DNA from: Pagrus major
Taxonomy: Eukaryota; Chordata; Actinopteri; Spariformes; Sparidae
DNA: 64,000 nucleotides
Assembly (NCBI RefSeq): GCF_040436345.1
Contig: NC_133221.1
Location: 22,516,665 to 22,580,664, forward strand
Direction: 5' to 3'
The notes under the pieces are model-generated. The model saw only the letters and a list, made by a program, of their open reading frames with translations, ran no database searches and was not told where the DNA came from. A program made the translations under genes and the position numbers. Positions 10,501 to 63,583 of this stretch are shown in pieces (the stretch's first letter is position 1; the number at the start of each line of letters is the position of its first letter).

Positions 10501-10504
10501 CTGG

Positions 10505-22718: not shown

Positions 22719-22766
22719 ATTGCCTTGAGAACGCCCTTTTTAAGGCGACAGCCAATCCCAGCTGAC

Positions 22767-25228: not shown

Positions 25229-25543
25229 TTACTCCTGGTCCTTGGTTTGTGATTCTGGTCTTTTGCCCTCTTCATCTGTGTCCACCTCAGGGTCAGATAC
25301 TGGTTTCCCACTAGCAGCTCCTCCATCAGCACCAGCTTCTGTCGGTCTCATCCTTTTCTCCTGTGTCTCCTGCCTACTGTTCTTCTTTGCTGATGCAATA
25401 TATCCTTGTCTGTTATAAACACTCATGACTTTGAGGACAGTCCGACTTGATACACCACACAATTGGGCAGTTTTTCGGACCGACAGACCTCCAACTTGTG
25501 CACCAACTATTTGTCCTCTGACAAAGTCTGTTAGCTCGCTCAT
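25229..25543 (-). CDS. Tc1-transposase DNA-binding domain protein, locus B (short)
   Basis: Second copy of the locus A gene, about 3 kb away and on the same strand. The first helix-turn-helix is intact ([25 protein letters not shown]), followed by the linker SAKKNS. The second helix-turn-helix is gone: about 60 codons are missing between GAAAAGGATGAGAC and AGAAGCTGGTGCT compared with A. The tail realigns at GAASGKP and ends PESQTKDQE at the same position as the stop in A. The ATG at 25,543 was chosen because it matches the family start and is directly preceded by a possible acceptor CTCCAG; the frame extends 22 codons further up without family resemblance. Just after the stop the frame-shifted VIWSDE of the ancestral catalytic domain is still readable. 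It could be a paralogue with one DNA-binding half, or a decaying copy. Confidence 0.45.
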
Positions 25544-26132
25544 CCTGGAGGTGGATGGATGTGTTGACAGGCTCCTCAGCAGGTGGCAGACAATGAAGTT
25601 GCTTTTCATGTGGCGTTCCCTTTATTTTGTCCACTGAAAAATGGATGGAAAAAGGGAAAACTAAGAAACACCAGAAATCACCATTTCAAACATTATATTT
25701 GTTTCAACCACAATCATTCAATTACATGCAAAGACAGATGTTCTGCATCTGGGCTCACACAGCCACCGTGTGGCAGTTACAAACGTTACCTGAGGCAGGT
25801 AGAGACACAAGGTGTTCAATCCACTCAATACACCTTTTTTTTCCACAGTAGCCATTTTGACACGAAATAGTGGATAAACACATGTGTTACTAATCACAAT
25901 CATTAAAGCTTAAGGCAGCTTCACAAGACCGAGGTGGACTGTCCCGTGTGCTGTTTGACCACTGCAGGTCAAGTGAAGGAAGGAAGGAAAACATCTGGCC
26001 TGTTTCCCGACAGCGGTCCGGACCCAACACAGGAAAAGGGCTAACACTAGCTTCCATCAGCAAAATACCTGTTAAGAGTAAGGTATTATCATTTCAGTGC
26101 CACTTAAAGACAAACTGGTGTTTTGTACTTAC

Positions 26133-28547: not shown

Positions 28548-29320
28548 TCAGTCAATCTCACACAAAGTCACAGAGCCATTCTTAAACCAGAAGCCTGGGA
28601 AGAGGGGCTCTGTGAATTTGGCCTCGAAAGTGTGTATGAGTCTCAGCTCTCCTGATGTGACACTGTAATATTTCAGAGTACCACCTTCCCAATCCAGAAA
28701 CAATGCAACCTTTTTGCATTGGGGCAATGCAACCTTTTTGCATTGGGGCAATGCAACCATTTTGCATTGGGGCGATGCAATCTTTTTGGATTGGGGCGAT
28801 GCAATCTTTTTGGATTGGGGCGATGCAATCTTTTTGGATTGGGGCGATGCAATCTTTTTGGATTGGGGCGATGCAATCTTTTTGCACTGGGGCGATTCAA
28901 TCTTTTTGGATTGGGGCGATGCAATCTTTTTGGATTGGGGCGATGCAATCTTTTTGCATTGGGGCACTATTTCTTTTTGTTTGTCTTTTTGCTTCCCATG
29001 CAAGGGAAACCATCCTTCCTTAAGGCAGAGCAGACTCCAGGACTTGTCATTGCATCCTAGGCCACCGCTACTGTCCCATTCTCGACCCACTCCTTTATAC
29101 GCCACTGCGATGCCAACCTCCCCTTTCCACTCCACCTCCCAGTAGCAGAAGCCTTTCTGGCCCTCCTCACAAAACACCTGACTCCTCTTAAACCTGTCCT
29201 CGTTTTCAGGTTGTGGCACCTTCTCCTCCACCTTCTTTACTGTTTTCACTTTCCTGTTTCCTTCGGACAGGACAAGTCTCTTGCTTGCTGTGTTTTCATC
29301 AAACTTCAGATCTGCACCAT
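28548..29320 (-). other. B30.2 (PRY-SPRY) exon of NLR-1
   Basis: Terminal exon, 257 residues. PRY part DENTASKRLVLSEGNRKVK, SPRY blocks YWEVEWKGEVGIAVAYKG, DKSWSLLCL, FLDWEGGTLKYYSV and PLFPGFWF. The ligand-binding face of B30.2 domains is formed by variable loops. Here the strand and loop before FLDWEGG is expanded by an in-frame array (separate entry). Without the array the domain matches the NLR-2 exon in length. Confidence 0.9.
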
Positions 29321-30716
29321 CTGACAGAGAAACAAATAACACATATTTTAGTGTGTAAATGTGTGTTTACTGTTTTATGTGCATTTGAAAGACGACAAAA
29401 GTAATAAAAGTATGTTTTTTTAAAATGAAATCCAAACAAAATCAATTAAAGATGAAATCTGGAGAAAAGTAAAATTGTTGAATTGTTTGTAATGTTGAAT
29501 TAGATTTGAAACCTTTAACTATTTTACAAATGTAATGAGTATGTACTGTAACAAATATATAATGGTAAAAAGTGCATACATGATAACCTATACTACCTGA
29601 GGAGTTTGGGAACGGATACATTCATTTTTAAATTTATCAGGCAACAGCTTGATTTCTAATGCTTGGTGGCAAGTGTTGGAAAAAAACAAAAAAAAAAGAC
29701 TCACACTTCTTCAGGCCTGGCTTTAACCGATGCTCTCCACTGTGGTCGAAGCTGTACAAGATGAATAAAAGTGTTGTCACAAACACTCATGTCAACCTTC
29801 AGCTTCAATGTGAAAAGACAAGAAGTGCATTTGATATGGACAGAGTTCATACAGCAGAAAAGTAGGCCTGTCTCATGAGCCCCATTTATACCTGGTATTA
29901 ATAAATGTTGTGTTATCTCGATTCTGCCAGCACTGGGACAGGATTAACTGAGTGGAGCTGGCGTTCATGTCAACAAACATGCCGCGTACCAGGTATCTGA
30001 ACTACGAAGCAGGATTTGGGGTTAGCGAGGTAATTTTAGGGTTTCAGGGTTACAACGGTGGTTCACCTCTTAATAGAGTGCATCACCATTATAACTTGCG
30101 TGCTGCACACCTCACTTGCTCCAGAGTAGATTATGTTGGAGTTAACACATCAATACGTATAGAAGCACAGCTAATCATGGCCAACCCCTTGGAAAATGGC
30201 ATCACCATTTGTAGAAGATCCTGAGGAGCTCAATGTCAGATCATGAGGGTTTCCCAGTAGGGCTAGAAAGTTCAGAAACTGGCAAAATCCATTGGCCTTT
30301 CCTGACTATGTTTTAAACGACATACAGCAGCAACTGATTTGCTTCAGCTGGATGTGGTTTACTTCTTTGGATTTATCTGGTATTGTAGCCACAGGAATAC
30401 CTGGGTTGACATATCGAGTTGATTACCACCATCTTTATGAAAACCAGCTATATACCTACACATATAAACACACATCCTGACATATTATCATACCAGATTG
30501 CCAGGCTCATATTTCGAAAAGGAGTTGTAGCAGAGAGCGTCGTCACCCCATTGACTCCTGGGTGATTGTAGCTCAGATCCAGCTGTTTCAGGGAGCAGGT
30601 CGTTTTGGACTCGAGAGCTTCGGCCAGGAATGAGCAGCCTTTCTCTGACACCTGACAACCTGACAACCTGCAGACCACACAAACATGTATGCACGCACAT
30701 CCACAGACAAACATGT

Positions 30717-30784: not shown

Positions 30785-33700
30785 AGAGTTATGTGATACT
30801 GAGCTTCAGGTAGAAGGGTTGTTGTTATGGTTCCTGCAGTTAAATACACATTATTTACTGATTTAGAGGGGTCATAAGATTTTTTCCTTTATTTTATTTT
30901 AATAAACATTTGTCAATCAAACATTTTCTATGGTCATTTTATAAATGTCAAAAATAAAACACTTTGATGATCAATTATATAAAAAATAAATTAATTGTCA
31001 TTACAGGCACATTTTCAATCTCAAATATTGTGGGTATTGGTTTTATCCTGGCTTTGGTGGGGGCAGGGATATATGAGAATACTGTTTTATATGGAGCCAA
31101 AGTGAAACCTGAACCCAGGTTCTGTTCCAGAGGTAAATCTTGTAAACATGGGCGAGTTAACTCCATAGAGTTGATGCAAGGACGAGTGCTCACTTGCCTT
31201 ATATGGAGTTTTTTATCATATGTTCTGAAGATGCAAACTTACTTTTACGAAATGTTTGCTGCTCTGCTTAACTGACCTTTGTTTGCAGTTTGGAATAACA
31301 ATACCTTAAACTACACACAACAACCCCCACTCCTGTTCATGATATGTACAGTATGTACATATCATTAAATACAGAGTAAATGTGATATACACTTACTTGA
31401 GAACCTCCAGTTTACAGTGTATACTCTTCAGGCCATCAGCAAGTTTCTCCACACCTGAATCCAGCAGGTCATTATGACTCAGGTCCAGCACTGTGAGATT
31501 AGAGGATGTGGAGCTGAGGACGGAGGATGTCAGACCTTTGCAGGATTCTTCAGAGAGCTCACACCAGCTCAGCCTGTGAAAATATTTGTAATCAGAAATC
31601 TGAAAAATCTGTGGTGATTGCTAAAACACCCCACTTTGTCTGGGTTCAGAAGTTTTTGCTCAGAGCTGGTTCATGTATATTTGTCTGACAGAACACCGAC
31701 AGTACAGTACACAGTACTGATGGTCTCAAAACAACCTCCCTTGGGATAAATAGGGGGGTGCCACATGGCTCTGTGCTGGGTCCTTTACCATTTACTATGG
31801 ATGTCAGGATTTTGTTCGGATTTTTGAAATCGAAACTGATTGAGATGAGTGTTCAATTTTGACTATCGACTTCAAATGCAGTATCAACAATACTGGTTTG
31901 CTCTGGACAGGTTTGAGACACCAAACTTTGTAACAATCTGGTGTTTTTTGTTGAACTCTGGAGTCTTTATATCTGTGGAATATTATTCGAACTTGTCTAA
32001 GCCTAACCTGCAAGTAGCACCAGGAATATGTTAAACTGCTGTTGTTAAATACCCCTATCTTTTAAAAGAAGAATTTGAAAAAGTAAATGACAGTCGTCAA
32101 ATCTAAGTCTAAAAATGTTTTCAAATCGAATTGTGACCTTAAAAGTGAAAGCCAAATTGAGTCGTGATTTGGAGAATTGTGAAACATCTACTATTTACAC
32201 ATAAACAATATTATTACTCCAACACAGACATTTGGCTCTTTCTTACACTCGGTGCACTGCGCAGCGTAAGTGTCATTGCTAGTTTCAGACCGATACAGTT
32301 GTCGTTTTCACGCCTAGCGCCTAAGTTGTGTAAATAGGAAATGTACCTTCGTCCACCTGTGCGCCCCTGGGGGAGTTGGTATTAAAATGAGATGTAGTCA
32401 GGCGCACTGATGCCAGATCACTATCATGAGGAAGCAGAAATTGACAGCGGCATTGACCAACAAAAAGCTGGTCTGCAGTCAAAGGCGCAGTAATTTTCCT
32501 GCTATTTAAAGGACGCATTATTCATATAGTAAGTTGTGCCTACACAGGTGGCCTCACAGGACGCGTACTCTGATTTTATGATTAGAGACACTGCTTTCAG
32601 TCATTTTAAACATTTCTATGTGTGCAGTAATGTCACTGTAACAAATACTGTGATGCATTTAATCAGCAACACTAAAAACTGAAGAGGAAACTCTCCGGAG
32701 GAAACAGAATTCATCTTTTATCTTTTGAATTAAATATCTCCGTCTTTCTAAGTGAAGCACAACTACGCAACTGTCCCACAGTAAAGACAAGTGCACCTGT
32801 TTATTAACTACAGCATGGTCCATGTTTTGGTGCACAAGGCTCTTAAAGGGAATGGGAGATGACACCCTGATTGATTTAATTTATGTTACGCCCAAAACAC
32901 ACCCATGACTAATGAAGAGTCTAAATACTTCCCTTTTACGCTGTGCATCAGACTTTGTGCCCATGTTGTCCACCATTTAACTACCAAATGGACTTGGATG
33001 CACCCTAAACGCACTTGCACCATGTGCTTTAGACTAAGCACACCATAGACCATTTGAATAGGGCCCTTGCAATCCCCCTTTTTATGCAGATGACAGTCTT
33101 GTATGCTTTTGACTCCTCTTCAATTTAAGCTATGTTAAGATTACAATCTGCCCCAAACGTTCTGCAGACATATCTTCATCATCTCAAACTTGTACTGAAT
33201 GTTGATAAGGAAAAATGTTTTATTTTTAAAGTTTGCATCTCTTTGCCATCCGCGGGTTTAATGGTACTGCAATTGAAATGTTGTAACCTTATAAATACAG
33301 GAGAAAGACTGCTTTTTAGTGCTGCAGTCTCTTGGAATCTATTGCAACATGACTTAAAACTGAATTCTCTAGTGACACTTTGATGCTTTGGGTCTTTACT
33401 AAATAACTGTTCAACATTGGCCTGTAACTGTTTTAACTGACACGTTTGTTGTTTTGTATGTTTGTATTTCTATTTTGATCTGGTTTGTTTGCTTGTCTCT
33501 GCTCATGTTCAGCATCATTGAAACTACGCTGGTCTCCACTAACAACAAGAAGAGATCTACATTCTATCATTTTTATGAGAGCATCAATTTTGAAAGTACT
33601 TACAAAGCAGTGTTGGAGACTTTGACCACCGGCAACATTCCTAGAAGAACTTTCTCTGATTTCAGGTATTTTTTTAGATCAAACACATCAAGCTCCTCAT

Positions 33701-36700
33701 CTGATGTCAGCAGCACAAAAGTCAGAGCTGACCACTCGGCGGTGGAGAAATTTTCAAATGTGACTGTTTCAGAGCGCAGGTACTTTTTGACTTCTTCCAC
33801 CAGAGAGTGGTCATTCAGCTCATTCAGACAGTGGAAGAGATTGAACTTTTTATCAGCATCACTGTTCTCTTCCTGAATCTTTTCTTTGATGTACTCAATA
33901 GTTTCCTTGTTGATCTCCTTGTTATTTTCTTTCTCTTTCAGCAGCTCTTGCAGTAGTTCCTGGTTGCTCTCCAGGGAGAGGCCTAGCAGGAAGCGGAGAA
34001 ACAGATCCCAGTCTCCATGTTTGATCTCCAAAGCCTTGTCGACTGCTGTCTTGTAGAAGTCTAAGTCTGCAACTGTCGAAGTGGGTTTGGTAAGCAGATT
34101 TTCACCTTTGTTATTGAATGTGTGAAAGACATAAAAAGCTGCCAGGAACTCTTGAATGCTCAGATGGACGAAGCAGAAGAGTTTCTGTTCGCTCACTCCA
34201 CAGCCTTCTCGTTTGATCTGCGTGAATAATCCAGAGAAAACTGCAGCCTCAGTGATGTCAAGACCGCACTCTGTCAAGTCGTCTTCAGTGAAGAGAAGGT
34301 TTCCTTCCTCGAGGCTCTCGAAGGCCAGTTTCCCCAGAGAAATGATTGTTTCCTGGTTCTTTTGATTCCAGCATGAATCTGTCTCAGACCTCTCACCTGT
34401 GTCATCTCCAGGATACTTCACGTTTGCCTGTCTGCATTGTAGCAAAAGGAAGTATATGTACATGTCAGTCAGAGCCTTGGGCATCCTTCCTTCTTGTTCT
34501 CTGTTCACAAAGTCCTCCAGGACTTTAGACGTGATCCAACAGAAGACAGGGATGTGACACATGATATAAATGCTTCTCGATTTTTTCACATATGACAAAA
34601 TTTTCTCAGCCAACTCCTTGTCACTGAATCTCTTCCTGAAGTATTCTTCCTTCTGATCATCATTGAATCCTCGCACCTCTGTAACCCGGTCAACTGTACG
34701 AGCAGGGATACGGTTGGATGCTGCAGGTCGTGAGGTGATCCAGATTTGAGCTTTAGAAAACAGATTTCCTTGGATGAGGTTTGTCAACAGAACATTCACT
34801 GAGGCTGCCTCTCCAACCTCTTTGTGAGAGGTACTTTCACTGAAGTCAAGATCAAGGCGACATTCATCAAAACCATCCAGGACAATCAGAATTCTGTACT
34901 TGTCATAGTCTGTTATTTCTGATGTCTTCATACCCGGAAAAAAGATGTTAATAAGTTCCTCCAAGCTGAGATTTTCCTCTTTTTTCAAATTCAGCTCCCG
35001 GAAAGAAAGAGGAAACATATAAAATATGTCCTCATTGGCCGTACTCTCAGCCCAGTCCAGCATGTACTTCATTGTAGCAAATGACTTTCCAATGCCTGCC
35101 ACTCCGATCGTTAGCACGGTTCTGATGGGTCCATGTTCTCCAGATGCTGGTTTGAAGATGTCCTGATATTTAATCAATGTTTCTTGTGTCACTGGTTTGA
35201 ACTTTGCATCTTGAACTTGTCTGGTCTCATGTTGTTCATTGACCTCTCCCCTCTCACCCTCTATGATGTAGAGATCTGTGTAGATCTCATTCAGAAGGGC
35301 AGAGGTTTTCTGCTTATCGATCCCCTCAGACACATGGGTGAATTGCTCCTTCAGCTGAGTTCTGAGTTTCTGCTGACTTACTATGTCAGGCTTACCTGTG
35401 GGGAAACAATTATCAAAGTTATTGTGGACAGACATTAACAAAAAGTGGCGATTAAATGTTTTGGATGCAATCAAGCAGTTAATTAAATCTAAACCATAGC
35501 ACCAAGAACAAAGTTGTGTTTTTTATGTTGCTTTTTTTGTATATGGTTTGTTTAGCTACATACAATTTAACCAAAAGTCAAGCAGGTCATGAAACATCAG
35601 GAATCGGCTCGAGAAGAGGAGCACATGCTTCATTTTTGCTGTCCTCCCATAGACCATTTTTTGGCTACACTGATCAGCCAGAACATTAAAAGGACTAACA
35701 AGTGAAGTGAATAACACAGATTATCTCGTTACAATGCAACATTCATGTGGATGCAACTTGACACTCAGCACCCACCCACACACCATTGCAGACCAAGCAC
35801 ACCTCCTCATGGTAACAACATTCCTGGATAGTGGTATCCTCCCCAGGAGGACAGTGTACCCTGCCACACTGCAAAAACGGCTGAGGAATGGCCTCAGGAG
35901 CATGACAAAGAGCTCAAGGCATCAGCCTGGGCTCCACATGTCCAGGATCTCAATATGATTGAGCATCTGTGGAACATGCTGGAACAGGTCCGATCCATGG
36001 AGGCCCGACCTCACAACCCACTGGACTCGAAGAATCTAACCCAACACCCTGGTGTCAGACACCACAGGACACCCAGAGGTTCTGTGTCTTTGCGTCAATG
36101 GGTCAAGTCCAATCCCCAGTGGGGCCTCGATGGATCGGACTGGTTCCCAGGGATGGGTGATTGGATTGTGATCTGGGAAATTTGGAGCACAGGCTAACAC
36201 TTTAAGCTCTTTGCCATTCCTCAGCAGTTTTTGCTGTGTAGTAGTGCATATTGTCCTGCCGGGAAGCCACTGCCATCAGGGAGTGCCTTTACTTGTACTT
36301 GGTCAGCAACGATGTTTTGGTGGGGTGGTGCATGACAAGTGGCATCCATTAAAAATACATGACCCAAGGTTGTTCTGGTTGATCAGTGTCTTGGTTGTGT
36401 CTAAACCAGAGTTTGATTTGGAATATCCAGGCATATTTTAGTGGATTGTTATTGGCTAAATAAAGCCGATCCTTACTTCCTACTCACTCTACTTTTGCAG
36501 TGCTGTTCTCCATTATGACAGTCTTACATGCCATTTTAATGCATTTGCGAGTGAAAAGTGTGCGACTGACTCTTGAGTCCTGATGGTGCGGCTCACAAAA
36601 TACACATACTAATTAAACTCAGAGGCTAACAATGCTGTTATTTCTCCTCTTTCTTTCTGAAGAGCAAAGAGCAGCTTTCAGGCAGTAGCGTCTCATAATT

Positions 36701-39700
36701 GCAGCAACACATAATTTTAGCTGTCACTGTCAATGTTGATTCTGTGAGAAACTTGGCAACAGAATTTCAACTTGTCCGTTGTAAACACCATAACACCACT
36801 ATGTGATCATCTTATTCTCTCAGTTAAATTTGAGCTTTACCAAATCTGAAACCAGTCTCAAAAACTGATTGAACCTAAAATACTGGATGGGTTTCTCCTG
36901 TCAATAAGTGTTATTTAAGTTGGTGGTGCTTCATTGACATACTGTTAATTTAAGATATGCTTCTTTAAAGACATAAAGCTCCATTTAGTTGTGAGTGAAC
37001 TCTCCTCTCACTTTGAGAAATGTTCAGAAATTGTTTCAGTTCGTTTAAAACTAGGCTAATCTAAAACTATTTCAAACCATGTAGTCATGAAGAGCCTGCT
37101 TGAGTTAATTTGGTTTAAAGCCTGTGCTGCTTGCTCTATAGTGCTGGCAGAAGGTAAATGAATGATTTCAACTGTATTATTATGTATTATATTGTTCTGT
37201 TGTTGTTAAACATGAAAAGTTGCACCACATGTGGTGATGACTGCCTTATGATTTATTTAACACTTAAAAGTCAATGTTAAGAAATTGGACTTGACTGTAA
37301 GCCTTGTTCCTCTCATGTAAGTTAAGGGGTTGGACGAACATTATAAAGGTCTTTATAGCATTCCAGTGCAGCACCACCTCCAACTTACAGCATACATTTG
37401 GTTTAATTAGACACCTCTCTGACATGCTGTCTATGTTAGACGCTTCTCATTTTTTTTTCATGGTTCTGTTTACATTTCACAGCAGTTTAGAGCATTTGGA
37501 TATGATTGCACCCTTATTTATGACTACCTCCATCCACACCCATGAGCTTACATCTTATTTCTGTCGTCCTGTCGACACATGTATCAGGCAACTGTTTGGC
37601 AGCTGAATGTTGGGAGGTTATCCAGAGTCGGGCAGAAGGAAACAGCTTCCCTCTGATGAGGTTTGTCAGTAGCACATCTACTGAAGCTGGCTCTCTGGTG
37701 TCAGTCAAGATGTTACAGTTGTCAAAGTCGAGAGGAGGTTGATAATCCTCCAGTCCATCCAAGACAAATACAACTTTGAACTGCTCATAGTTAGAAATCA
37801 CACACTCTTTTGTTTCCTTGAAGAAATGCTCAAGAAGTCTCACCAAACTGACTTTTGTCTCTTTTATCTTACTGAGCTCGGAGAAGTTCAGTGGAAATAT
37901 CACTTCTTCATCAGCTTTGCTCCAAAGGGACTTAACCCTTAAAAATGACCCCTTGTCATTTTTAGCCCACTCTGTTTTGAATTTCTGCGCATGGAAGGAT
38001 TTTCCAATTCCAGCTTCTCCGATAGTCAGCACAGTCCTGATTGTTTTTTCTTTTGTATCTTTGAAGATGTCAGATGTTGCATTCACTCGTGTCACAGATT
38101 TTGCCACAGGACTTCCATTTTTCTCTCCATTATCGACCTCATTACTTTTCTCCTCTCTGATGATGTGTTCTGTGTTTTGTTGGTTCGGATGATTTTTGTT
38201 TTCAACTTCAGTGTTCTCACTAAGAAATCTTCTTCTCAGGGCTGATAACAGCTGCTGCCGTCGCTTCAATGTTTCTGGATAAACAGAACAAATTTCAGCA
38301 CATTATTGATGATGAAGGGTAGATGTAATTACCTTTAAGTCAGCTAAAGTTATATATGATACAACACAGTGAACAAGTTGCACCACAACAATAGTTTAAA
38401 GTTACCAGTGTTAAGAATTATGTCACTGTTGTTGAAACACATAAATTCAGTTTAGTAATGTTTATAAAATCTGCAGTAACATTGTTATATGTCATGGTTG
38501 CAACTTACAGTATTTCCTACCCATAATTTTACAATCTAACAGAAAAAGTGACACAGAGTTATGAAAATAAGTTATTGTTATTGTTTCATACCTCGACATT
38601 CTGTCTGTTTCTGAATATATTCAGAGGGAATCTTATGAACTCCTGAAGGTTGAGAGACGATCCAGAGACGAGCGGAGGGAAGCAACTTCCCCTTGATGAG
38701 GTTTGTTAGCAGCACATCCATCGAGGCTGGCTTGTGCATATCAGTCAGGTCCTCGTTCTTTTCAAAGTCCAGAGGAAGTTTACATTCTTCCAAACCATCG
38801 AGGACAAAAGCTACTTCACATTTGTTGTACTTGCAAGCTTTTCTGTGTTTTCTGTCATTGAGGGAATGACGAAGCAGATCTTTCATGCTTTGATCTTTTT
38901 TTCTTCTTGAATTCAGCTCGCTGAACTTCAATGAAACTATAAAGTCTATGTTCTTGTTGGACTTTCCTTTTGCCCAGTCTACCATGAACCTCCTTGTTTG
39001 AAGTGTTTTACCAACACGAGGAACTCCCTTCATTAGCACTGTTCGCACTGTCTTTTGCTCTGAATCGAGAAATAATCTACTATAAGTTTGTTTTTTATCT
39101 TTGTTTTCTTCTCCCATCTCATAGAGTTCTGTGTCAGTTTCAAGTTTACTCAGTTCCTCTTCATGCTGACGGCAGATTGTTGCCTTCAGATCTGCTGTCA
39201 GTTCGTGTTTGAAATCTTTGTCTAAAGAAATGATAAAGACATTATAGAGAAAACAGAGTACAGTGACTGCAAAAAATAGAGTGTCACATTATGCATTTTG
39301 TTACACCAGCAGTTAAAGCCCAGAGAGGAAAATGGCAGTAATACACAAAATGTAAGTAGGAATTTGCAATGACATTAATATAGTTGAGTTTATGAAACAT
39401 CTTCCATTAAAGTGATGTATGTCATGGTTTCAGCTTTTACAGTATTTCCTGATCAACATCAACATCAGAAATGACACATGATACAGATCTCACGATACAT
39501 AATATGAGTTATGAGACTAAGTTATTGTTATTGTTTCATACCTCGACATTCTGTCCGTCTTTTAATATATTCAGAGGGAATCTTCTCAACTCCTGAAGGT
39601 TGAGAGACGATCCAGAGATGAGCGGAGGGAAGCAAATTCCCCTTGATGAGGTTTGTTAGCAGCACATCCATCGAGGCTGGCTTGTTCATATCAGTCAGGT

Positions 39701-42700
39701 CCTCGTTGTTTTCAAAGTCCAGAGGAAGGTCACATTCTTCCAAACCATCAAGGACAAAAGCTATCTTACATTTATCAAACTTGCAAACTTCTGGGTGTTC
39801 ATCATCACTGAGGGAATGACGAAGCAGATCTGTCATGCTTTGAACTTTGTCTTCCCATGAATTCAGCTCGCTGAACTTCAGTGAAACTATCAAGTCTATG
39901 TTGTTGTTGGACTTTTCTTCTGCCCAGTCTACCATGAACCTCCTTGTTTGAAATGTTTTACCAACACCAGCAGCTCCTGTCATTAGCACTGTTCGCACTG
40001 TCTTTGGCCAATAAGTTTTAAATAATCCATCATAGGTTTGTGCTTTATTTTCTTTTCCTATATCGTAGAGTTCTGTGTCAGTCTTAAGTTTCTTCACTTC
40101 TTCATGCTGACTGAGGATTCGTTTTTTCAGGTCTGCTGTGAGTTTGGGATTGACGGCTTTCCCTAAAGAAACAATAAAGACAATACAAACAGAGCAGAAT
40201 GCAGTAATTTCAATAAGTGTCACATTCCTAAACAATTAAATGGCAAACATGAAAAAGTTTTGTCACGTGATGTTTTGTGTTATACCTGCAATCAAAGCTG
40301 AGAGATTCAAAATGTATGAGAATAAAGAAATGTATCTATGAGTTTGCAAGAAAGAAATAAGTGTTGAATAGCTCTATATTCCAGCAGTAACCACTGTTAT
40401 AGTGTTTGGTCAGTAACCATGTCTCTCCTCCTCTTGCTCATGCTGTGGAATAGAAAATTAATTTTCTGGTATCCCTGCCCACTTCATCCAATCAGGATAG
40501 AGAACTCCATAAAGGGGCGGTCCTGTCTGCTTGTGAACGCACAGAGAGCAGGATCCTCCTGTTTGCTGCTCTGTCTAGCGATTAGCACTCTACGTACATG
40601 TGGCGACGTAAAGAGCAGAGAGGGGATTGCTAACTGCAAAACAGACGTTAGCTAAAATGATAAAAAAGTTTACAGCAGCTTTAAGCTGATAAAAGTTTCT
40701 GTGTTGCTTATTCTAACCTTTGCTCGAGGTGTCCACACTGCTGGGCGTAGTGGTGTCTGGATTCTGATTGGGTGAACTTCAACACAAACACAAAACATTT
40801 ATTACATATTTGTGTTAATAATATATTAGATACATTTACTCTAACAAAGATTTATATTCATGTTTGAGGTAAAATGCATCTTCGGGCCTTCACTGCTCTG
40901 CTTCTTCATTTCATCCTCATATTGTTACTCCATCTTATTATCTGTTACAGCTGTAATAGTATGCAAACATAAGTTGTTTGTCCTACCTTAGCTCAGACAT
41001 GAAGTCGAGAGGATCATCCTTGGGAACTTTCCTGGATGCAGGGGAGACTCATGAGGGCTTTAAAACATATTTATTTGAGTGATTTCACAAAAACAAACTC
41101 TAAAATGTTTAACATCTAAAAAAAACCTTTTAGCTTCAAGGTGGAAACTGCAGTAAAGTCTGAATACTCTGATAGGTCGTTCTCTTCGTTTTTGTCTTCT
41201 GCTCTCTGAACATATCAAACAAAGAACATGACCAAAATATCTTACCCTGGTTCTCCTGTACTGAAGTTGAGAGGATCATCCTTGGACCTGTCACTTCTCA
41301 TAGACACACTGCTGGGTACAGGAGAGACTGATCTGTCTTGGTCATGCGGACTGTAAGACAGATACAAAATGTTTTAAAATTGACAAACCATTACACTTTT
41401 AACATCTTAAAAAGGTGCATTATACATTAGATACATTTACTCTAACAAAGGTTTATATTATTTATGTTTGAGGTAAAATGCATCTCCGGGCCTTCACTGC
41501 TCTGCTTCTTCATTTCTTCCTCATATTGTTACTCCATCTTATTATCTGTTTTAGCTGTAATAGTATGCAAGCGTAAGTTGTTTGTCCTACCTTAGCCCAG
41601 ACCTGAAGTCGAGAGGATCATCCTTGGGAATGGTCCTGGATGAAGGGGCGACTGGTCTTCTAGGCTCATGAGGGCTTTAAAACAAATTTATTTGAGAGAT
41701 TTCACAAAAACAAACTTTAACATTTTTAATATCTGGGAAAAAAACTTTTTAGATTCAAGGTGGAAACTGCAGGAAAGTCTGAATACTCTGATTAGTCATT
41801 CTCTTCATTTTTTTCTTCTGCTCTCTGAACCTATCAAACAATGAACATGACCCAAAACATCTTACCCTGGTTCTTCTTTACTGAAGTTGAGAGGATCATC
41901 CTTGGACCTGTCACTTCTCATGGACACACTGCTGGGTACAGGAGAGACTGATCTGTCTTGGTCATGCAGACTGTAAGACAGATACAAAATGTTTTAAAAT
42001 TGACAAACCATTACACTTTTAACATCTTAAATGTTCATTTTGAGCTTCAAGGTAGTATCTACAGTTTATGTTTTCCTTTACTGTGAACCTCTCTGTATCA
42101 AAGTACCATCATAACTAAAATATCTTACCCTGGTTGTTCTTTACTGAAGTTGAGAGGATCATCCTTGGACCTGTCACTTCTCATAGACACACTGCTGGGT
42201 ACAGGAGAGACTGATCTGTCTGCCTCAAGCTGACTGTAAGACGGATATAAAATGTTTTAAAATTGACAAACCATTACACTTTTAACATCTTAAATGTTCA
42301 TTTTAAGCTTCAAGGTAGTATCTACAGTTTATTTTATCCTTTACTGTGAACCTCTCTGTATCAAAGTACCATCATAACTAAAATATCTTACCCTGGTTCT
42401 TCTTTACTGAAGTTGAGAGGATCATCCTTGGACCTGTCACTTCTCATGGACACACTGCTGGGTACAGGAGAGACTGATCTGTCTTGGTCATGCGGACTGT
42501 AAGACAGATATAAAATGTTTTTAGATTCAAGGTGGAAACTGCAGGAAAGTCTGAATACTCTGATTAGTCATTCTCTTCATTTTTTTCATCTTAAATGAAA
42601 AATAAGACGGATATAAAATGTTTTAAAATTGACAAACCATTACACTTTTAACATCTTAAATGTTCATTTTGAGCTTCAAGGTAGTATCTACAGTTTATGT

Positions 42701-44541
42701 TTTCCTTTACTGTGAACCTCTCTGTATCAAAATACCATAACTAAAATATCTTACCCTGGTTGTTCTTTACTGAAGTTGAGAGGATCATCCTTGGACCTGT
42801 CACTTCTCATAGACACACTGCTGGGTACAGGAGAGACCGATCTGTCTTGGTCATGCGGACTGTAAGACAGATATAAAATGTTTTAAAATTGACAAATCAT
42901 AACACTTTTAACATCTTAAATGTTAATTTTACCAAAGTCACCTTAGTCATCATCATAACAGTTGCCCCCCTGAGGGATTTGGCAGCAGCCACCACTGCTT
43001 GAACCTTTTAGTTGAGAGGTTCACAAAAACATTTTGAGCAGCAACATTTCAGAGTAAAACCTGTTAATTTCAATGGAATTTCTGCCATCACATAGTCGAG
43101 GAGGGAAAAAATGTGGCTTCACTTCAGAATCACTTTGTTGAGTTGAAATGCATCTGTGTCACTTTTACAATAATAGTAAATTAAAGCTGCTGTAAATTTG
43201 ATATATTTTTTATAATAATCGTTAAATAGCTCTGTATTCCAACAATAGTCATTAGCCCTTTTCACACAGAGGCGCCGCATTATCTCCGCAGCGGAGGTTC
43301 ACCATTCTCCGCCTAATTCAAACAGCACGCCGGCGCTGCGGCTCCAAAAGAGGCGTCATCATGATGATGACGTCTGTGTTTTTTTCAACACGTTTCCCCG
43401 GTGTCCTCCTGTTAATCTAAACTTGTACCCGCTGACTGTTTATAATCATATGGATGCAGTTATAATGTGTTGTGATTTAGATCCTGACCCATCAAACATC
43501 CTGGAAAGTGACAGAGTTACGTTTTTCTCTTAATTAAATAATTACGTAATCGCCATCAGCAAACAGGAGACTGTCTGACTCTCTCACTCGCTGGGGGGGA
43601 GGCTGTTTTCTGGGGGAAAGTTCACTGAAGTCTTGGTCGGGAGGGCTGACCGTCGCTGTGATTTTTTTTCAAGACAGTGACTACACCAACACATAGTGGA
43701 AGGAGACAAACACATGGTGAGTTTCTTGCCGGGGACAGACGCTGTTTTTCAGGCAGAAATGCGTCAGAGTCATTAGGACAGACAGGATGACAGGCACTTC
43801 TTCACGTATAACTGCGGTATTTTTTTCCTAATATAAGTTGCCAAAGACACTACCAGTTACTACATTACTGTTGGTTGGTCATGTAACGTTGCTTTGTGGG
43901 ACATTTTGTTACACTTCGTTATGATTTAAGGGGAAACGAGATGAGGACCCAAACGCAGACAACACACGGGAGGCAGTATAGGGGAACAAAAGGCAAGCTT
44001 TAATAATTAAAGCTGAATATACAAAAAAATGGACCAAAAACAAAGTAGCAACATAAAGCTTAAACAAAGTCCAACAAAGCAAAGTACAAATCAAATGAAA
44101 AATCAAGGAATCAAAATCCAAACACACCAATGGGGAGACACTGGAGGAAACACTGGAGAAGAGTGCTGGGAGGCAACACGGGGGAAGACAGACCAAGACG
44201 GAGTAACATGGGACAACACGGAACGAACTGACAAAGACATGAGGGAGAACAAAGACTATATACACAGACACACTAACGAGGGAATCAGGAACAGGTGGAG
44301 TTAGGGGGGAAGAAGATCCTCCTGTTTGCTGCTATGTCTGGTGATTACTGCTGCATGTTCATGAGGTGAAGCAGAGGGGAGGGAGGGGACTGCTAATTGC
44401 AAAACGGACAGCAAGTTAGCTAAACGAGGACAATGCTTAAAGCAGCTTTAAGTATGAAGAGTGTGCATGGTACGTAGTGTATCCCAAATAAACTTCTACT
44501 TACTTCAGTGTTGATGAGGCTTCAGTCTGCTCCTCAGACAT
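28548..44541 (-). CDS. Fish NLR, NLR-1: N-repeats, 3 half-NACHTs, FISNA-NACHT, LRR, B30.2
   Basis: Probable cytosolic innate immune sensor of the large fish-specific NLR family. Exons, high to low: 44541-44504 (MSEEQTEASSTL), 42859-42755, 42496-42392, 42233-42129, 41970-41866, 41674-41591, 41350-41246, 40776-40718, 40162-39542, 39221-38592, 38274-37552, 35395-33604, 31573-31397, 30667-30494, 29751-29705, 29320-28548. All junctions are GT-AG with matching phase. The sum is 5643 nt, 1880 residues plus stop. A ninth candidate exon (41057-40987) is frame-breaking and was left out. Domain order: short Ser/Pro-rich repeats, three truncated NACHT modules, FISNA plus full NACHT with winged helix and HD2, two LRRs, linker ending KPGLKKY, PRY-SPRY. 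No PYD or CARD is seen, although many relatives have none encoded here either. Whether all upstream exons really join this gene, or some belong to alternative or separate transcripts, is inference. Confidence 0.75.
28701..28965 (-). repeat. In-frame 24-bp coding minisatellite inside B30.2
   Basis: Eleven tandem copies of a 24-bp unit encoding PQ(C/S)KKIAS, with the three copies nearest FLDWEGG reading PQCK(M/K)VAL. The ancestral single copy is visible in NLR-2 as PQCEKIAL. The frame stays open throughout. Opposite-strand ORFs over it (FCIGAMQ, LGRCNLF) are artefacts. Confidence 0.95.
29705..29751 (-). other. Linker exon of NLR-1
   Basis: 47-nt exon encoding FDHSGEHRLKPGLKK(Y), the conserved short exon that joins LRRs to B30.2 in fish NLRs (usual form KPGLKKY or RPGLRKY). 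Donor GTGAGT after AAGAAGT gives phase 1, which fits the B30.2 exon exactly. Confidence 0.85.
29870..30440. repeat. Unidentified intronic sequence shared by both NLR copies
   Basis: The intron between LRR exon 2 and the linker exon holds about 570 bp beginning TGTCTCATGAG and including GTACCAGGTATCTGAACTA. It is repeated nearly unchanged at 57,980-58,545. Short frames over it show no family resemblance. It could be an old interspersed element carried in the duplication. Confidence 0.4.
30494..30667 (-). other. LRR exon 2 of NLR-1
   Basis: 58-codon LRR exon: LSGCQVSEKGCSFLAEAL..LKQLDLSYNHPG, the ribonuclease-inhibitor-type repeat of NLRs. Its last third (VTTLSATTPFRNMSLAIW) has lost the usual LRR pattern, so the repeat is degenerate at its end. 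The phase is 2 at both ends. Confidence 0.85.
30724..30781. repeat. (CA)n microsatellite in NLR-1 intron
   Basis: About 29 CA dinucleotides, 56 bp upstream (on the gene strand) of LRR exon 2. Absent from the NLR-2 copy. Poly-CysVal frames over it are artefacts. Confidence 0.95.
31397..31573 (-). other. LRR exon 1 of NLR-1
   Basis: 59-codon LRR exon: LSWCELSEESCKGLTSSVLS..LTVLDLSHNDLLDSGVEKLADGL..CKLEVLK. A canonical full NLR leucine-rich repeat pair, phase 2 at both ends, so LRR exons can be added or skipped in frame. Confidence 0.9.
31640..33480 (+). repeat. LINE relic split by a nested non-LINE insertion, in NLR-1 intron
   Basis: The left piece (31,640-31,810) reads GVPHGSVLGP, the RT block GVPQGSVLGP. 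The right piece (33,085-33,480) reads FYADDSLVC, then LHHLKLVLNVDKEKC, then LLFSAAVSWNLLQHDLKLNS, the catalytic and C-terminal blocks of the same ORF. The intervening 1.27 kb (31,815-33,080) is unrelated and rich in GCGC-containing phrases (CACGCCTAGCGCCTA, ACGCCCAAAACACACCCATG), resembling fish non-autonomous DNA transposons. The same nested arrangement is in NLR-2 at 60,010-61,640. Confidence 0.75.
33604..35395 (-). other. FISNA-NACHT exon of NLR-1
   Basis: Large exon of about 597 codons. FISNA (about residues 1-70: LRTQLKEQFTHVSEGIDKQ..LLNEIYTDLYI), then NACHT with Walker A GVAGIGKS, Walker B LIVLDGFDECR, sensor 1 WITSRPAASNRIPA, winged helix CFVHLSIQEFLAAFYV, and HD2 up to EWSALTFVLLTSDEELDVFDLKKY. 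All catalytic motifs are present, so ATP binding is expected. It starts at GTAAGCCTGAC after a CCCCACAG acceptor. Phase 1 in, phase 2 out. Confidence 0.95.
35650..36165 (+). repeat. Tc1-like DNA transposon relic, + orientation
   Basis: Begins with the fish inverted-end phrase CTGATCAGCCAGAACATTAA. Then decayed transposase: blocks ADQAHLLMVT, CPATLQKRLRNGL and NMIEHLWNMLEQVRSMEARP, a form of the NPIEHLWD catalytic block, followed by the terminal SLRQWVKS remnant. The internal part is heavily deleted. The start of a second copy lies at 63,835-64,000. Confidence 0.75.
36205..36400 (-). repeat. Same Tc1-like family, inverted fragment
   Basis: The - strand reads GTTGCTGACCAAGTACAAGT, CCTGATGGCAGTGGCTTCCC and TGCTGAGGAATGGC, matching the part of the neighbouring + element at about 35,780-35,890. 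The two make a loose inverted pair. Confidence 0.65.
36440..37500. other. Intronic stretch, nothing recognisable
   Basis: AT-rich NLR-1 intron sequence between the Tc1-like relics and the half-NACHT exon at 37,552. No motif, exon or clear repeat was recognised. Confidence 0.4.
37552..38274 (-). other. Half-NACHT exon C3 of NLR-1
   Basis: 241 codons, phase 1 at both ends. Walker A GEAGIGKS, Walker B FVLDGLEDYQPPLDF, sensor 1 LWITSQHSAAKQLPD, then the exon stops at a GTAAGC donor right after TTEIR. The winged helix and HD2 that follow in the full exon are missing. The N-terminal part (ETLKRRQQLLSALRRRFL) is longer and more divergent than in C1 and C2. Confidence 0.85.
38592..39221 (-). other. 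Half-NACHT exon C2 of NLR-1
   Basis: 210 codons, phase 1 at both ends. Walker A is GVPRVGKT (the GxxxxGKT pattern holds, but Arg is unusual), Walker B FVLDGLEECKLPLDF, sensor 1 LWIVSQPSGVHKIP, ending TECR before a GTATGA donor. The Walker A Arg and the loss of Arg after sensor 1 (SQPS instead of SRPA) could alter nucleotide handling. Very similar to C1. Confidence 0.85.
39542..40162 (-). other. Half-NACHT exon C1 of NLR-1
   Basis: 207 codons, phase 1 at both ends. A shortened FISNA-like start (LKKRILSQHEEVKKLKTDTELYDIG, residues about 12-36), Walker A GAAGVGKT (residues 63-70), Walker B FVLDGLEECDLPLDF, sensor 1 LWIVSQPSGVEKIP, ending TECR. Near-duplicate of C2, including intron flanks. Confidence 0.85.
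40395..40690. repeat. Interspersed repeat in NLR-1 intron, copy 1
   Basis: Shares GATCCTCCTGTTTGCTGCT, GAGAGGGGA.TGCTAA.TGCA and GCAGCTTTAAG with 44,310-44,460. It is an interspersed element of unknown class, probably two partial copies. Confidence 0.55.
40718..42859 (-). other. N-terminal repeat exons R1-R8 of NLR-1
   Basis: Short exons encoding Ser/Pro/Asp-rich repeats typical of fish NLR N termini. Five are 105 nt (R1 42859-42755, R2 42496-42392, R3 42233-42129, R4 41970-41866, R6 41350-41246) and read RSVSPVPSSVSMRSDRSKDD then PLNFS. R5 (41674-41591) is an 84-nt variant with VAPSSRTIPKDDPLDF. R7 (41057-40987) is R5 minus 13 bp and breaks the frame. R8 (40776-40718) reads SPNQNPDTTTPSSVDTSSK and changes phase from 2 to 1, which sets up the NACHT exons. 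R1-R6 are phase 2 at both ends. Introns are as alike as the exons, showing very recent tandem duplication. Confidence 0.85.
43255..43810. repeat. Interspersed element, related to 50,010-50,480
   Basis: Starts CCTTTTCACACAGAGGCGCC and carries GCCGGGGACAGACGCTGTTT, TTTTCAGGCAGAAA and GGACAGACAGGATGACAG. The distal copy has GCCGGGACAGAAGCTGTTTT, TCAGGTGGAAGTG and GGACAGACAGGAAGACAG. Possibly a non-autonomous DNA transposon; the ends are not resolved. Confidence 0.5.
43914..44305. repeat. Interspersed repeat in NLR-1 intron 1
   Basis: GAGGACCCAAACGCAGACAA at one end, GCAAGCTTTAATAATTAAAG, then many CAAAGTCCAACAAAG and GGAACAGGTGGAG phrases. This polypurine-rich pattern is a common fish interspersed repeat; I cannot assign its class. 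The reading frames on both strands are by-products. Confidence 0.55.
44310..44460. repeat. Interspersed repeat, copy 2 (see 40,395-40,690)
   Basis: Matches 40,550-40,686 over GATCCTCCTGTTTGCTGCT, TGCTAATTGCAAAACGGACA and AAAGCAGCTTTAAG. It lies 45 bp downstream (gene strand) of the NLR-1 start exon. Confidence 0.55.
44504..44541 (-). other. Start exon of NLR-1
   Basis: ATG at 44,541 opens MSEEQTEASSTL and runs into donor GTAAGT (44,503-44,498) in phase 2, which fits the repeat exons. Short Glu/Ser-rich start exons of this type (MS-D/E-x-E-E) are usual in fish NLR and TRIM genes. A possible acceptor GAAAACAG lies 22 bp upstream of the ATG, consistent with a spliced untranslated leader. Confidence 0.75.
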
Positions 44542-56926: not shown

Positions 56927-59900
56927 TCAGTCAATCTCACACAAAGTGACAGAGCCATTCTTAAACCAGAAGCCTGGGAAGAGGGGCTCTGTGAATTTAG
57001 CCTTGAAAGTGTGTATGAGTCTCAGCTCTTCTGATGTGACACTGTAATATTTCAGAGTACCACCTTCCCAATCCAGAAACAATGCTATTTTTTCGCATTG
57101 GGGCACTTTTATATATTTTGGTTTGCCTTTTTGCTTCCCATGCAAGGGAAGCCATCCTTCCTTAAGGCAGAGCAGACTCCAGGACTTGTCATTGCATCCT
57201 AGACCACCACTACTGTCCCATTTTCGACTCACTCCTTTATACGCCACTGCGATGCCAACCTCCCCTTTCCACTCCACCTCCCAGTAACAGAAGCCTTTCT
57301 GGCCCTCCTCACAAGACACCTGACTCCTCTTAAATCTGCCCTCGTTTTCAGGTCGTGGCACCTTCTCCTCCACCTTCTTTATGGTTTTCACTTTCCTGTT
57401 TCCTTCGGACAGGACAAGTCTCTTGCTTGCTGTGTTTTCATCAAACTTCAGATCTGTACCATCTGATAGAGAAACAAATGACACATATTTTAGTGTGTTA
57501 ATGTGTGTGTTTACTGTTTTATGTGCAATTGAAAGACAATAAAAGTAATACAAGTATGTTTTTTAAAATGAAATCCGAAAAAAATCAATTAAAGATGAAA
57601 TCAGAGAAAAGTAAAATTGTTGAATTGTTTGTAGTTTTGAACTATTTTACAAATATAATGAGTATGTAGTGTAACAAATATATAATGGTAAAAAGTGCAT
57701 ACATGATAACCTATACTACCTGAGGAGTTTGGGAACAGATACATTCATTTTTTAAATTAAACAGGCAACAGCTTCATTTCTAAGGCTTGGTGACAAGTGT
57801 TGGAAATAAAAAAAAAAGACTTACACTTCTTCAGGCCTGGCTTTAACCGACGCTCTCCACTGTGGTCGAAGCTGTACAAGATGAATAAAAGTGTTGTCAC
57901 AAACAGACAAGTCAACAGACATGACAAGAAGTAAGTGCATTTGATATGGACAGAGTTCATACAGCAGAAAAGTAGGCCTGTCTCATGAGTCCCATTTATA
58001 CCTGGTATTAATAAATGTTGTGTTATCTCGATTCTGCCAGCACTGGGACAGGATTAACTGAGTGGAGCTGGCGTTCATGTCAACAAGCATACCACGTACC
58101 AGGTACCTGAACTATGAAGCAGGATTAGGGTTAGCAAGGTCATTTTAGGGTTTCAGGGTTACAACGGTGGTTCACCTCTTACTAGGGTGCATCAACATTA
58201 TAACTTGCGTGCTGCACACCTAACTTGCTCCAGAGTAGATTATGTTGGAGTTAACACATCAATACGTATAGAAGCACAGCTAATCATGGCCAACCACTTG
58301 GAAAATGGCATCACCATTTGTAGAAGATCCTGAGGAGCTTGATGTCAGATCATGAGAGGGTTTCCCAGTAGGGCTAGAGAGTTCAGAAACTGGCAAAGTC
58401 CATTGGCTTTTCCTGACTATGTTTTAAATGACATACAGCGGCAACTGATTTGCTTCAGTTTGATGTGGTTTATTTCTTTGGATTTATCTGATATTGTAGC
58501 CCCAAGAATACCTGGGTTGACATATCGAGTTGATTATCACCATTGCTTAGCGAGGTTGCCATTAAGAAGCCAGATAATGAAAAGATATCCTTGGTATGTA
58601 GAACTTGAATTATAGTACAGGCCTGTGGCCAAGGACAGCAATGCTATGGATAGGCATCACTCATTGTTGAATTACTTTTTGCATGGGAAAACCTGCTAGC
58701 TACTAGCTTTTGCCAGGCTTGTATAGGCTTGTTATAAGAGGTGGGGGTTGGGTGACTGTCAGCTTGTTGGATAGATTTCTTTCTTAAGAAGTGGCCGCAC
58801 TGTAAAGATTGCAGCGATGTGTTCTGTGTGCATTTACATCTTGCATTGATATGCGTTTTTCTTTATCCAGATAAATCGGGTTTGATTGAGGCCGCTTGTT
58901 TTGCACAATTTCTCTTATCAACACCAAGGTGATCCTTGAGTTTTGGTAACTAGCCTGCTAGCTAATAAGATAAAATATTGAGTTTAGATTTTACCTTAGT
59001 GTAGATGCACCATCATTATGAAAACCAGCTATATACCTACAAACACATATAAACACACATCCTGACATATTAACATACCAGATTGCCAGGCTCATATTTC
59101 GATAAGGAGTTGTAGCAGAGAGCGTTGTCACCCCATTGACTCCTGGGTGATTGTAGCTCAGATCCAGCTGTTTCAGGGAGCAGGTCTTTTTGGACTGGAG
59201 AGCTTCAGCCAGGAAAGAGCAGCCTTCCTCTGACACCTGACAACCTGACAACCTGCAGACCACACAAACACGCACGCACGCACATCCACAGACAATTATT
59301 TTAAATATTTTAATGAACATTTGTCAATCAAACATTTTCTATGGTCATTTTATAAATGTCAAAAATAAAACACTGATGATCAAATATTATACTTTCTGGT
59401 GACTGCCTTTATCCTACTTTTTACAAAATATTTTTTTTATGTGAAAAATAAATTAATTGTCATTACAGGCACATTTACAATCTCAAATAGTGAAACCTGA
59501 ACCCAGGTTCTGTTCCAGAGGTAAATCTTGTGAACATGGGCAAATTAACTCCATAGAGTTGATGCAAGGACGAGTACTCACTTGCCTTATTTGGAGTTTT
59601 TTATTTTATGTTCTGCAGACACATTTTACTTTTACGAAATGTTTGCTGCTCTGCTTAACTGACCTTTTTTGCAGTTTGGAATAACAATACCTTAAACTAC
59701 ACACAACCCCCCTGTTCATGATATGTACAGTATGTACATATCATCAAATACACAGTAAATGTAATGTACACTTACTTGAGAACCTCCAGTTTACAGTGTA
59801 TACTCTTCAGGCCATCAGCAAGTTTCTCCACACCTGAATCCAGCAGGTCGTTATGACTCAGGTCCAGCACTGTGAGATTAGAGGATGCGGAGCTGAGGAC

Positions 59901-62900: not shown

Positions 62901-63583
62901 GTTGGATGCTGCGGGTCGTGAGGTGATCCAGATTTGAGCTTCAGAAAACAGATTTCCTTGGATGAGGTTTGTCAACAGAGCATTCACTGAGGCTGCCTCT
63001 CCAACATCTGTGTGAGAGGTACTTTTACTGAAGTCAAGATCAAGGCGACATTCATCAAAACCATCCAGGACAATCAGAATTCTGAACTTGTCATAGTCTG
63101 TTATTTCTGATGTCTTCATACCCGGAAAAAAGATGTTAATAAGTTCCTCCAAGCTGAGATTTTCCTCTTTTTTCAAATTCAGCTCCCGGAAAGAAAGAGG
63201 AAACATGTAATATATGTCCTCATTGGCCGTACCCTCAGCCCAGTCCAGCATGTACTTCATTGTAGCAAATGACTTTCCAATGCCTGCCACTCCGATCGTG
63301 AGCACGGTTCTGATGGGTCCATTTTCTCCAGATGCTGATTTGAAGATGTCCTGATATTTAATCAATGTTTCTTGTGTCTCTGGTTTGAACTTTGCATCTT
63401 GAACTTGTCTGGTCTCATGTTGTTCATTGACCTCTCCCCTCTCACCCTCTATGATGTAGAGATCTGTGTAGATCTCATTCAGAAGGGCAGAGGTTTTCTG
63501 CTTATCGATCCCCTCAGACACATGGGTTAATTGCTCCTTCAGCTGATTCCTGAGTTTCTGATGACTTCTAATGTAAGGCTTAC
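56927..63583 (-). CDS. Fish NLR, NLR-2: FISNA-NACHT, LRR, B30.2 (5' end outside window)
   Basis: Paralogue of NLR-1. Exons, high to low: 63583-61795 (FISNA-NACHT, about 596 codons), 59952-59776 (LRR 1), 59252-59079 (LRR 2), 57871-57825 (linker FDHSGERRLKPGLKK), 57462-56927 (PRY-SPRY with stop). All splice sites are GT-AG and phases match those of NLR-1 exactly. Walker A GVAGIGKS, Walker B LIVLDGFDECR, sensor 1 WITSRPAASNRIPA and winged helix CFVHLSIQEFLAAFYV are intact, so it looks functional. Compared with NLR-1 there are scattered substitutions, a 2-residue deletion near RSETCWNQ and a single PQCEKIAL unit in B30.2 instead of eleven. The N-terminal exons, including any repeat or half-NACHT exons, lie beyond 64,000. 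Confidence 0.88.
58544..59013. repeat. 470-bp segment present only in the NLR-2 copy
   Basis: Breaks the otherwise colinear intron of NLR-2. It is flanked by the 6-bp direct repeat CACCAT (58,538-58,543 and 59,008-59,013), whereas NLR-1 has a single CACCAT at the same place. Either an insertion here or a repeat-mediated deletion in copy 1. Confidence 0.7.
60010..61640 (+). repeat. Split LINE relic with nested insert in NLR-2 intron
   Basis: Same structure as 31,640-33,480: GGTACCATGTGGCTCTGTGC (RT block) on the left, the YADDSLVC and LVLNVDKEKC blocks on the right, about 1.07 kb of non-LINE sequence between. Its presence at the same place in both copies shows the insertions predate the duplication. 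Confidence 0.75.

Follow-up and report, generated by a model that had tools for sequence, protein, structure and literature searches.

Truncated NACHT modules that may have been multiplied within NLR-C genes of Pagrus major

Can a single NLR polypeptide carry more than one NACHT domain? Animal NLRs are modelled with one NACHT per chain, the chains oligomerising, and a gene cluster in the fish Pagrus major raises the question of whether this always holds. We have analyzed a window of 64 kb (G000:C7:22516665-22580664 in an assembly of 786 Mb and 25 contigs), whose coordinates are used throughout. A gene transcribed from its minus strand, gene 1, contains a full exon (F1) encoding FISNA, NACHT, winged helix and HD2. 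A preliminary description, made from the sequence, had placed three tandem half-NACHT exons upstream of it at 37552..40162, all open and in phase 1-1, and these exons (C1, C2 and C3) were borne out with AG/GT borders. Together with two neighboring genes they make it reasonably probable that truncated, non-switching nucleotide-binding modules have been multiplied within an NLR-C gene.

Half-NACHT modules in a three-gene cluster

C1, C2 and C3 each have a single open frame, comprising 206, 209 and 240 complete codons respectively, and all match the Pfam NACHT profile (E = 4.2e-22, 2.4e-20 and 6.3e-20). The matches end at profile positions 139, 140 and 146 of 167. Pfam gave no match to the winged helix or HD2 in the three exons, and FISNA went unrecognized there even at E values up to 10. 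The exons had been said to stop at a donor before the winged helix and HD2. This is correct, although the stop comes earlier than claimed, ahead of HD1 with GxP as well as of the winged helix with its histidine and HD2. The other 15 half exons of the cluster, described below, end at the same codon. Walker A (GxxxxGK[ST]) and Walker B (VLDGLE[ED]) are present in all 18.

The half exons are of three types, A, B and C, to which C1, C2 and C3 respectively belong. The P-loop is GEAGIGKS in all six exons of type C, while those of type A have GAAGVGKT (four exons), GVPLVGKT or GDPLVGKT. The odd Walker A sequence GVPRVGKT that had been remarked upon in C2 is indeed there, and is shared by four of the six B exons; the remaining two have GVPHVGKT and GVPGVGKT. 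Sensor 1 is glutamine in every half exon. The change to SQPS reported for C1 and C2 is thus real, but C3 is changed as well, to SQHS. In the full exons sensor 1 is arginine in F1, F2 and F3 and in 19 of 20 picked from the genome, with threonine in the other (L035). In the portion available of a comparison of NLRs (PMC2323615) the sensor-1 arginine is found in all those compared except four, and GxP and the winged-helix histidine are described.

Identity between the half modules and the full NACHT of their own gene is low, at 36-43%. Their likeness to the nucleotide-binding module of mammalian NLRs is evident from searches of PDB sequences, where C1 matches NLRP3 at E = 7e-17 over the core from P-loop to sensor 1, and C3 finds both NLRP9 and NLRP3 (E = 1e-8 to 2e-8). 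They differ from that module in having no HD1, winged helix or HD2, and in the replacement of the sensor-1 arginine by glutamine. Since the sensor-1 arginine, HD1, GxP and winged helix are absent, the half modules are not expected to be complete ADP/ATP switches. They may nevertheless be regarded as putative nucleotide binders.

How general are such exons in the genome? We found 18, all of them in one 86-kb cluster on contig C7. Mapping of the window and of 77 kb beyond it reveals three genes, each having an identical start peptide, repeat exons, a full NACHT exon (F1 to F3) that is intact, and a SPRY exon. There are 3, 10 and 5 half exons in genes 1, 2 and 3, which supports the earlier suggestion that the expansion is continuing. 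In order of transcription gene 1 reads A-B-C-F and gene 2 reads A-B-C, A-B-C, A-B-B-C, F, while gene 3 has an A/B hybrid-C, then A-B-C, F. There are six exons of each type if the hybrid is included in A. All 18 are open, bordered by AG and GT, in phase 1-1 and a multiple of three in length (612-738 nt), and the introns within cassettes are short (302-321 nt).

A search of the genome with the C1 protein, in which the best 150 of 320 candidates were scored, gave 12 matches of type A or B at 72-100% identity. All are located at C7:22555257-22640303 in open frames of 232-250 aa, and the other 138 scored matches lie in frames of at least 426 aa. The C3 protein (best 150 of 317 scored) found six C-type matches at 92-100% identity in the same cluster; the other 144 were at most 58% identical, in frames of at least 335 aa. 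The candidates outside the cluster with the two shortest frames, on contigs C17 (426 aa) and C19 (335 aa), were rejected as half exons, since their frames continue past the half-exon end and they are broken full exons. There was no half exon outside the C7 cluster among the matches scored, leaving out a 536-aa match on contig C24, and a divergent one could be missed. A Pfam search of the genome was unable to reveal half exons, because the 98 of 362 candidates that were scored (all E < 1e-29) lie in frames of at least 600 aa. No relatives of the half exons were found in viral contigs. Outside the cluster the C1 query has at least 138 NACHT matches, nearly all in frames of about 600 aa or more, on contigs C1, C19, C24 and others. 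To judge from such matches, the NLR-C repertoire of this genome is heavily expanded.

We constructed a tree of 41 NACHT cores, comprising the 18 half exons, F1-F3 and the 20 picked full exons, the latter drawn from 15 contigs. In it the half exons group as a single clade (SH-aLRT 91.4, bootstrap 87), separate from F1-F3 and nearest to the main NLR-C clade of the sample (87/77). All of them terminate one base past a homologous arginine codon. At the homologous site GG occurs in 12 and GC in 6 of the 18 picked full exons (out of 20) in which we could locate the motif. F1-F3 have GA there, and GT occurs in none. The simplest account would be one gain of a donor preceding the split into A, B and C, whereby a FISNA-NACHT exon ancestral to them, in a different NLR-C lineage, acquired a splice site just before HD1. 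The truncated exon would then have been duplicated into the three types, and the A-B-C cassettes would have spread, probably by unequal crossing-over.

There are several signs of exchange between copies. C1 and C2 had been described as near-duplicates together with their introns. For the exons this stands (85% identity), but not for the introns, which are 94% identical over 34 aligned bases at the donor side and 53-62% elsewhere. Silent divergence between C1 and C2 falls from 0.45 over the first 52 codons to 0.10 over the rest, which suggests that the 3′ part lies in a conversion tract. In gene 3 the hybrid exon (g3A1) is 81% identical to C1 and 80% to C2, and its core groups with type B. It is followed by a single intron of 311 nt and then by a C exon, as would be expected after a crossover between A and B. 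In genes 2 and 3 the last exons of types B and C, at 65837-67495 and 117317-118975 in continued window coordinates, are nearly identical (nonsynonymous divergence, dN, 0.004 and 0.005; synonymous divergence, dS, 0 and 0.012), indicating that these genes have exchanged sequence very recently. Such near-identity might also arise if the extra cassettes of genes 2 and 3 were haplotypes or mis-joined repeats, and NLR clusters assemble poorly in many fish according to the accessible part of one survey (PMC5894186). Yet the remaining copies differ from each other by several percent, there is not one N in the 141-kb joined stretch, and C1-C3 lie inside the window itself, independent of the quality of the flank. 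An artefact of assembly is highly improbable.

Frame maintenance and amino-acid change

Are the half exons translated? We are nearly certain that they are coding and translated, because insertions and deletions in the exons never shift the frame while those in the introns mostly do. The alignment of half-exon DNA contains 13 gaps, of which none is frame-shifting, compared with 14 of 16 out of frame in introns of the same cassettes (Fisher P = 1.8e-6). In neutral simulations along the trees all 12 A and B copies remained open in none of 2000 runs, and all six C copies in 3.6%. Taken by itself, the C1-C2 pair would have escaped a stop with a probability of ∼0.03-0.04 and a frameshift with one of 1.5e-4 to 3.8e-4. 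The latter figure assumes 21 frame-shifting indels for every 245 substitutions, as counted between genes 1 and 2 over blocks of which some contain coding exons. Alternatively, the half exons could be pseudo-exons, untranslated remnants of duplication that splicing passes over, and a ratio dN/dS close to 1 in all types is in keeping with this. But 18 of 18 are open, divisible by three and have kept their splice signals, and the contrast in gaps between exons and introns speaks against it. The earlier argument that the open frames speak against pseudo-exons is upheld, the number of open copies being more than chance would give, and we consider this explanation extremely unlikely.

The coding status is founded on frame maintenance and not on amino-acid constraint. 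A dN/dS analysis had been proposed as a check, and it gives no indication of constraint overall. For C1-C2 counting yields a ratio of 0.96 (bootstrap 0.59-1.64), YN00 one of 1.36 and maximum likelihood one of 1.20, and the overall ratio is ∼1 in each of the three types. Purifying selection on C1 and C2 was accordingly rejected as a proof of coding. Leaving omega (dN/dS) free led to no significant departure from omega = 1 (twice the log-likelihood difference being 0.7 for A, 2.6 for B, 2.7 for A and B together and 0.1 for C), and the severity of C1-C2 replacements by BLOSUM62 does not differ significantly from neutral (P = 0.16-0.20). We draw no contrast from the full exon, because omega for F1-F2 depends on the method used (0.61 by counting, 0.82 by YN00, 1.58 by maximum likelihood).

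In type C the P-loop part, with one nonsynonymous and two synonymous changes (ratio 0.14), looks conserved, unlike the N-terminal part with its 22 and 2 (ratio 3.0). Comparing the N-terminal part with the P-loop and Walker B-to-end parts gives Fisher P = 0.010 for regions picked post hoc. Relative to introns, the divergence between cassettes is 1.87-fold for exon A (95% interval 1.41-2.50), 1.36 for B (1.00-1.84) and 0.96 for C (0.69-1.33). Plain positive selection on exon A is not claimed. Its silent sites are raised too and exchange with B is visible, so that this exchange suffices to explain the fast change of exon A. An alternation of charge between A and B in gene 1 (A -7, B +13) was dropped since it is not repeated in gene 2, where the A modules have charges of +7, -4 and +2 and the B modules +6, +2, +2 and +3.

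Splicing of the half exons

How might the half exons be joined to the rest of the gene? The proposal that phase allows their free inclusion holds. The adapter exon R8 exits in phase 1, F1 is entered at 35395 in phase 1, and all eight subsets of C1-C3 bridge the two without a stop. From the ATG to the end of the F1 frame the reading is open under each of these subsets, giving 848-1506 aa. It requires the inner acceptor of repeat exon R7 at 41031; the outer acceptor at 41057 breaks the frame, and 13 nt of R7 that are present in gene 3 are absent from gene 1 (40987-41057, minus strand). Scored with a consensus matrix over the minus strand from 28.3 to 44.7 kb, the acceptors of C1, C2 and C3 rank 9, 18 and 17 among 1181 AGs, and their donors 28, 29 and 40 among 1024 GTs. 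A single NLR with several modules, or a set of isoforms differing in module number, would fit these phases.

In genes 2 and 3 an R8 copy also precedes every one of the three extra cassettes, making six copies in total, all with phase 2 in and phase 1 out. Splicing from C through an internal R8 to A is out of frame, leading to a stop 30, 30 and 41 codons on, whereas C joined directly to A is open. The donor of the three internal copies is GTTACA in place of the GTTAGA found in the first R8 of each gene, with loss of the G at +5. The internal copies are probably skipped as a rule, or else used as alternative entries from the repeat exons. Since the half exons are in phase 1-1, and the internal R8 copies do not match this phase and carry a weakened donor, splicing of the half exons to the full NACHT would be the simplest route. 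Straight read-through of the half exons and F meets no stop in any of the three genes and gives 1255 aa with 4 P-loops for gene 1, 2796 aa with 11 for gene 2 and 1709 aa with 6 for gene 3; these would be the largest numbers of P-loops if the half exons are spliced to F. We regard it as probable that several half exons are included together in one mRNA.

The same exons might instead form an array from which one or a few are chosen for each transcript, by exclusive or stochastic splicing, with isoforms that differ in one variable module. The internal R8 copies would then be alternative entry points from the repeat exons, for which their 2-to-1 phase is suited. An array of homologous tandem exons of the same phase in one gene, with short introns within the cassettes, resembles known sets of mutually exclusive exons, and the part available of PMC9013439 indicates that mutually exclusive choice often accompanies tandem exon duplication. 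In gene 1 the frame is kept by any subset of C1-C3. However, the half exons differ from the exons treated there in that all have lengths divisible by three, so phase does not force exclusion and would permit multiple inclusion. The loss of the +5 G from the internal R8 donors is a further point against choice, which we consider rather unlikely, though it has to be taken seriously. We give much less weight to a short product, in which transcripts terminate within the half exons or beyond them, and the truncated protein of repeats and half-NACHT modules acts as a dominant-negative partner. There are polyadenylation-like hexamers between C3 and F1 (ATTAAA at 37407, AATAAA at 37257 and ATTAAA at 36540), but these are common by chance in so AT-rich an intron. 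Moreover the C3 donor is good (rank 40 of 1024) and in phase with F1, and all three genes retain an intact full exon. This explanation is very improbable.

Several observations weigh against joint inclusion of translated, nucleotide-binding modules. The joint splicing of the half exons is deduced from exon phase. The openness of type C is weak evidence on its own (P = 0.036), and the simulations presume tree-like change when the copies in fact exchange sequence. The pooled ratio of nonsynonymous to synonymous differences (pN/pS) is 0.96 for A, 1.28 for B and 0.88 for C, which also fits relaxed amino-acid constraint. Exons A and B lack the regional contrast of type C, the ratio being 1.22 in the P-loop part and 1.14 in the N-terminal part. 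The position of the second P-loop glycine is arginine or histidine in five of six B exons, and mostly glycine in A and C. Given these B-type residues, and an unconserved P-loop region in both A and B, nucleotide binding may be lost there.

If several half modules are indeed present in one chain, they may best be viewed as folded, diversifying surfaces for interaction or docking, or as decoys, placed ahead of one real switch. A role as decoy or interaction surface is possible, though we lean somewhat against it. They might alternatively act in cis as a brake on the intact switch. In its strongest form our reading would make gene 2 a single NLR polypeptide of eleven NACHT cores, in which ten truncated, non-switching and diversifying cores precede one complete switch, with a length that changes by cassette duplication and may vary between individuals. 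We put this forward tentatively, as a reading of the sequence that stands a little below an even chance.

Gene layout and relation to known NLRs

The features of the cluster are collected in Table 1. Pfam scans of 33600-35522 and 61791-63728 place FISNA, NACHT, NOD2_WH and NLRC4_HD2 all above cut-off. In gene 2 both PRY and SPRY of the B30.2 domain are above cut-off. In gene 1 PRY is above cut-off, while SPRY reaches 24.5 bits against a cut-off of 26.3 and is split by a repeat insert. The gene 1 SPRY exon contains in-frame tandem repeats of eight residues of the type SPQSKKIA, which are largely absent from the gene 2 copy (56927-57562). Leucine-rich repeats (LRRs) are seen weakly, as one LRR-like motif, LTVLDLSHNDL, near 31497, and as a match of 15.3 bits to LRR_6 (cut-off 23.4) in the one open reading frame scanned. 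By their FISNA, NACHT, repeat exons and B30.2 the three genes are assigned to NLR-C.

Table 1. Positions of the exons of genes 1 and 2
Feature	Position	Strand	Remarks
Start exon of gene 1, MSEEQTEASSTL	44504..44541	-	one start exon per gene
R1-R7, seven N-terminal repeat exons, phase 2-2	40987..42859	-	R7 acceptor 41031
R8, adapter exon, phase 2 in, phase 1 out	40718..40776	-	
C1, half-NACHT exon, type A	39542..40162	-	621 nt; phase 1-1; GAAGVGKT, VLDGLEE, sensor 1 SQ
C2, half-NACHT exon, type B	38592..39221	-	630 nt; phase 1-1; GVPRVGKT, VLDGLEE, sensor 1 SQ
C3, half-NACHT exon, type C	37552..38274	-	723 nt; phase 1-1; GEAGIGKS, VLDGLED, sensor 1 SQ
F1, full exon of gene 1 (FISNA, NACHT, winged helix, HD2)	33603..35395	-	acceptor 35395
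PRY/SPRY (B30.2) exon of gene 1, with repeat insert	28548..29366	-	
F2, full FISNA-NACHT exon of gene 2	61791..63583	-	acceptor 63583
Ten half exons of gene 2	65837-77417, continued window coordinates (G000:C7:22582501-22594081)	-	beyond window end
PRY/SPRY exon of gene 2	56927..57562	-	

Elsewhere in the window, a long array of simple repeats occupies 10500-18000, where long open frames overlap in more than one reading frame; it is probably an expanded satellite or microsatellite. Open reading frames at 22077-22739 and 25229-25621 (both minus strand) resemble by eye the DNA-binding part of a Tc1-type transposase.

In zebrafish the NLR-C (NLR-B30.2) genes have a uniform exon structure, in which the largest exon encodes NACHT and each of the other domains has a single exon (Howe et al. 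2016, PMC4852459, in the part available). The genes described here share with them N-terminal peptide repeats of ∼30 aa, a large exon for FISNA, NACHT, winged helix and superhelical region, a C-terminal B30.2 and exon shuffling, and differ from that account in having 3-10 extra truncated NACHT exons before the large exon (PMC4852459). None of the three genes conforms to the NLR-C trait of one NACHT-encoding exon per gene. The round goby likewise has a large FISNA-NACHT repertoire, in which most NLR-C exons have frameshifts or a large insertion, possibly including new introns according to the authors; an in-frame array of truncated NACHT exons is not described in the accessible text (PMC6988351). 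In the literature we found no NLR with two or more NACHT domains, subscription papers and database gene models being outside the scope, and the only match to a three, tandem, double, multiple or second NACHT was the legend to a figure of an oligomer model. The three genes are classed as a variant within the known NLR-C family and not as standard members of it.

What would such genes mean? Fish NLR repertoires have been sized from NACHT and FISNA hits in six-frame translations, taking hits of >75% of the domain length (PMC5894186, in the part available). Counting NACHT alone would give 21 NLRs for this cluster, where there are three genes. If the reading is true, the rule of one NACHT per chain would be broken by an NLR that links several NACHT cores covalently, just one of which is complete. 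The cluster would then offer a natural experiment on whether contacts between NACHT domains can regulate or nucleate an NLR in cis. It would also test whether NACHT surfaces are targets in an arms race, because the half modules change at a rate near that of neutral DNA and yet stay in frame. With changes in the number of cassettes, the number of modules would become an evolving trait of an innate immune receptor.

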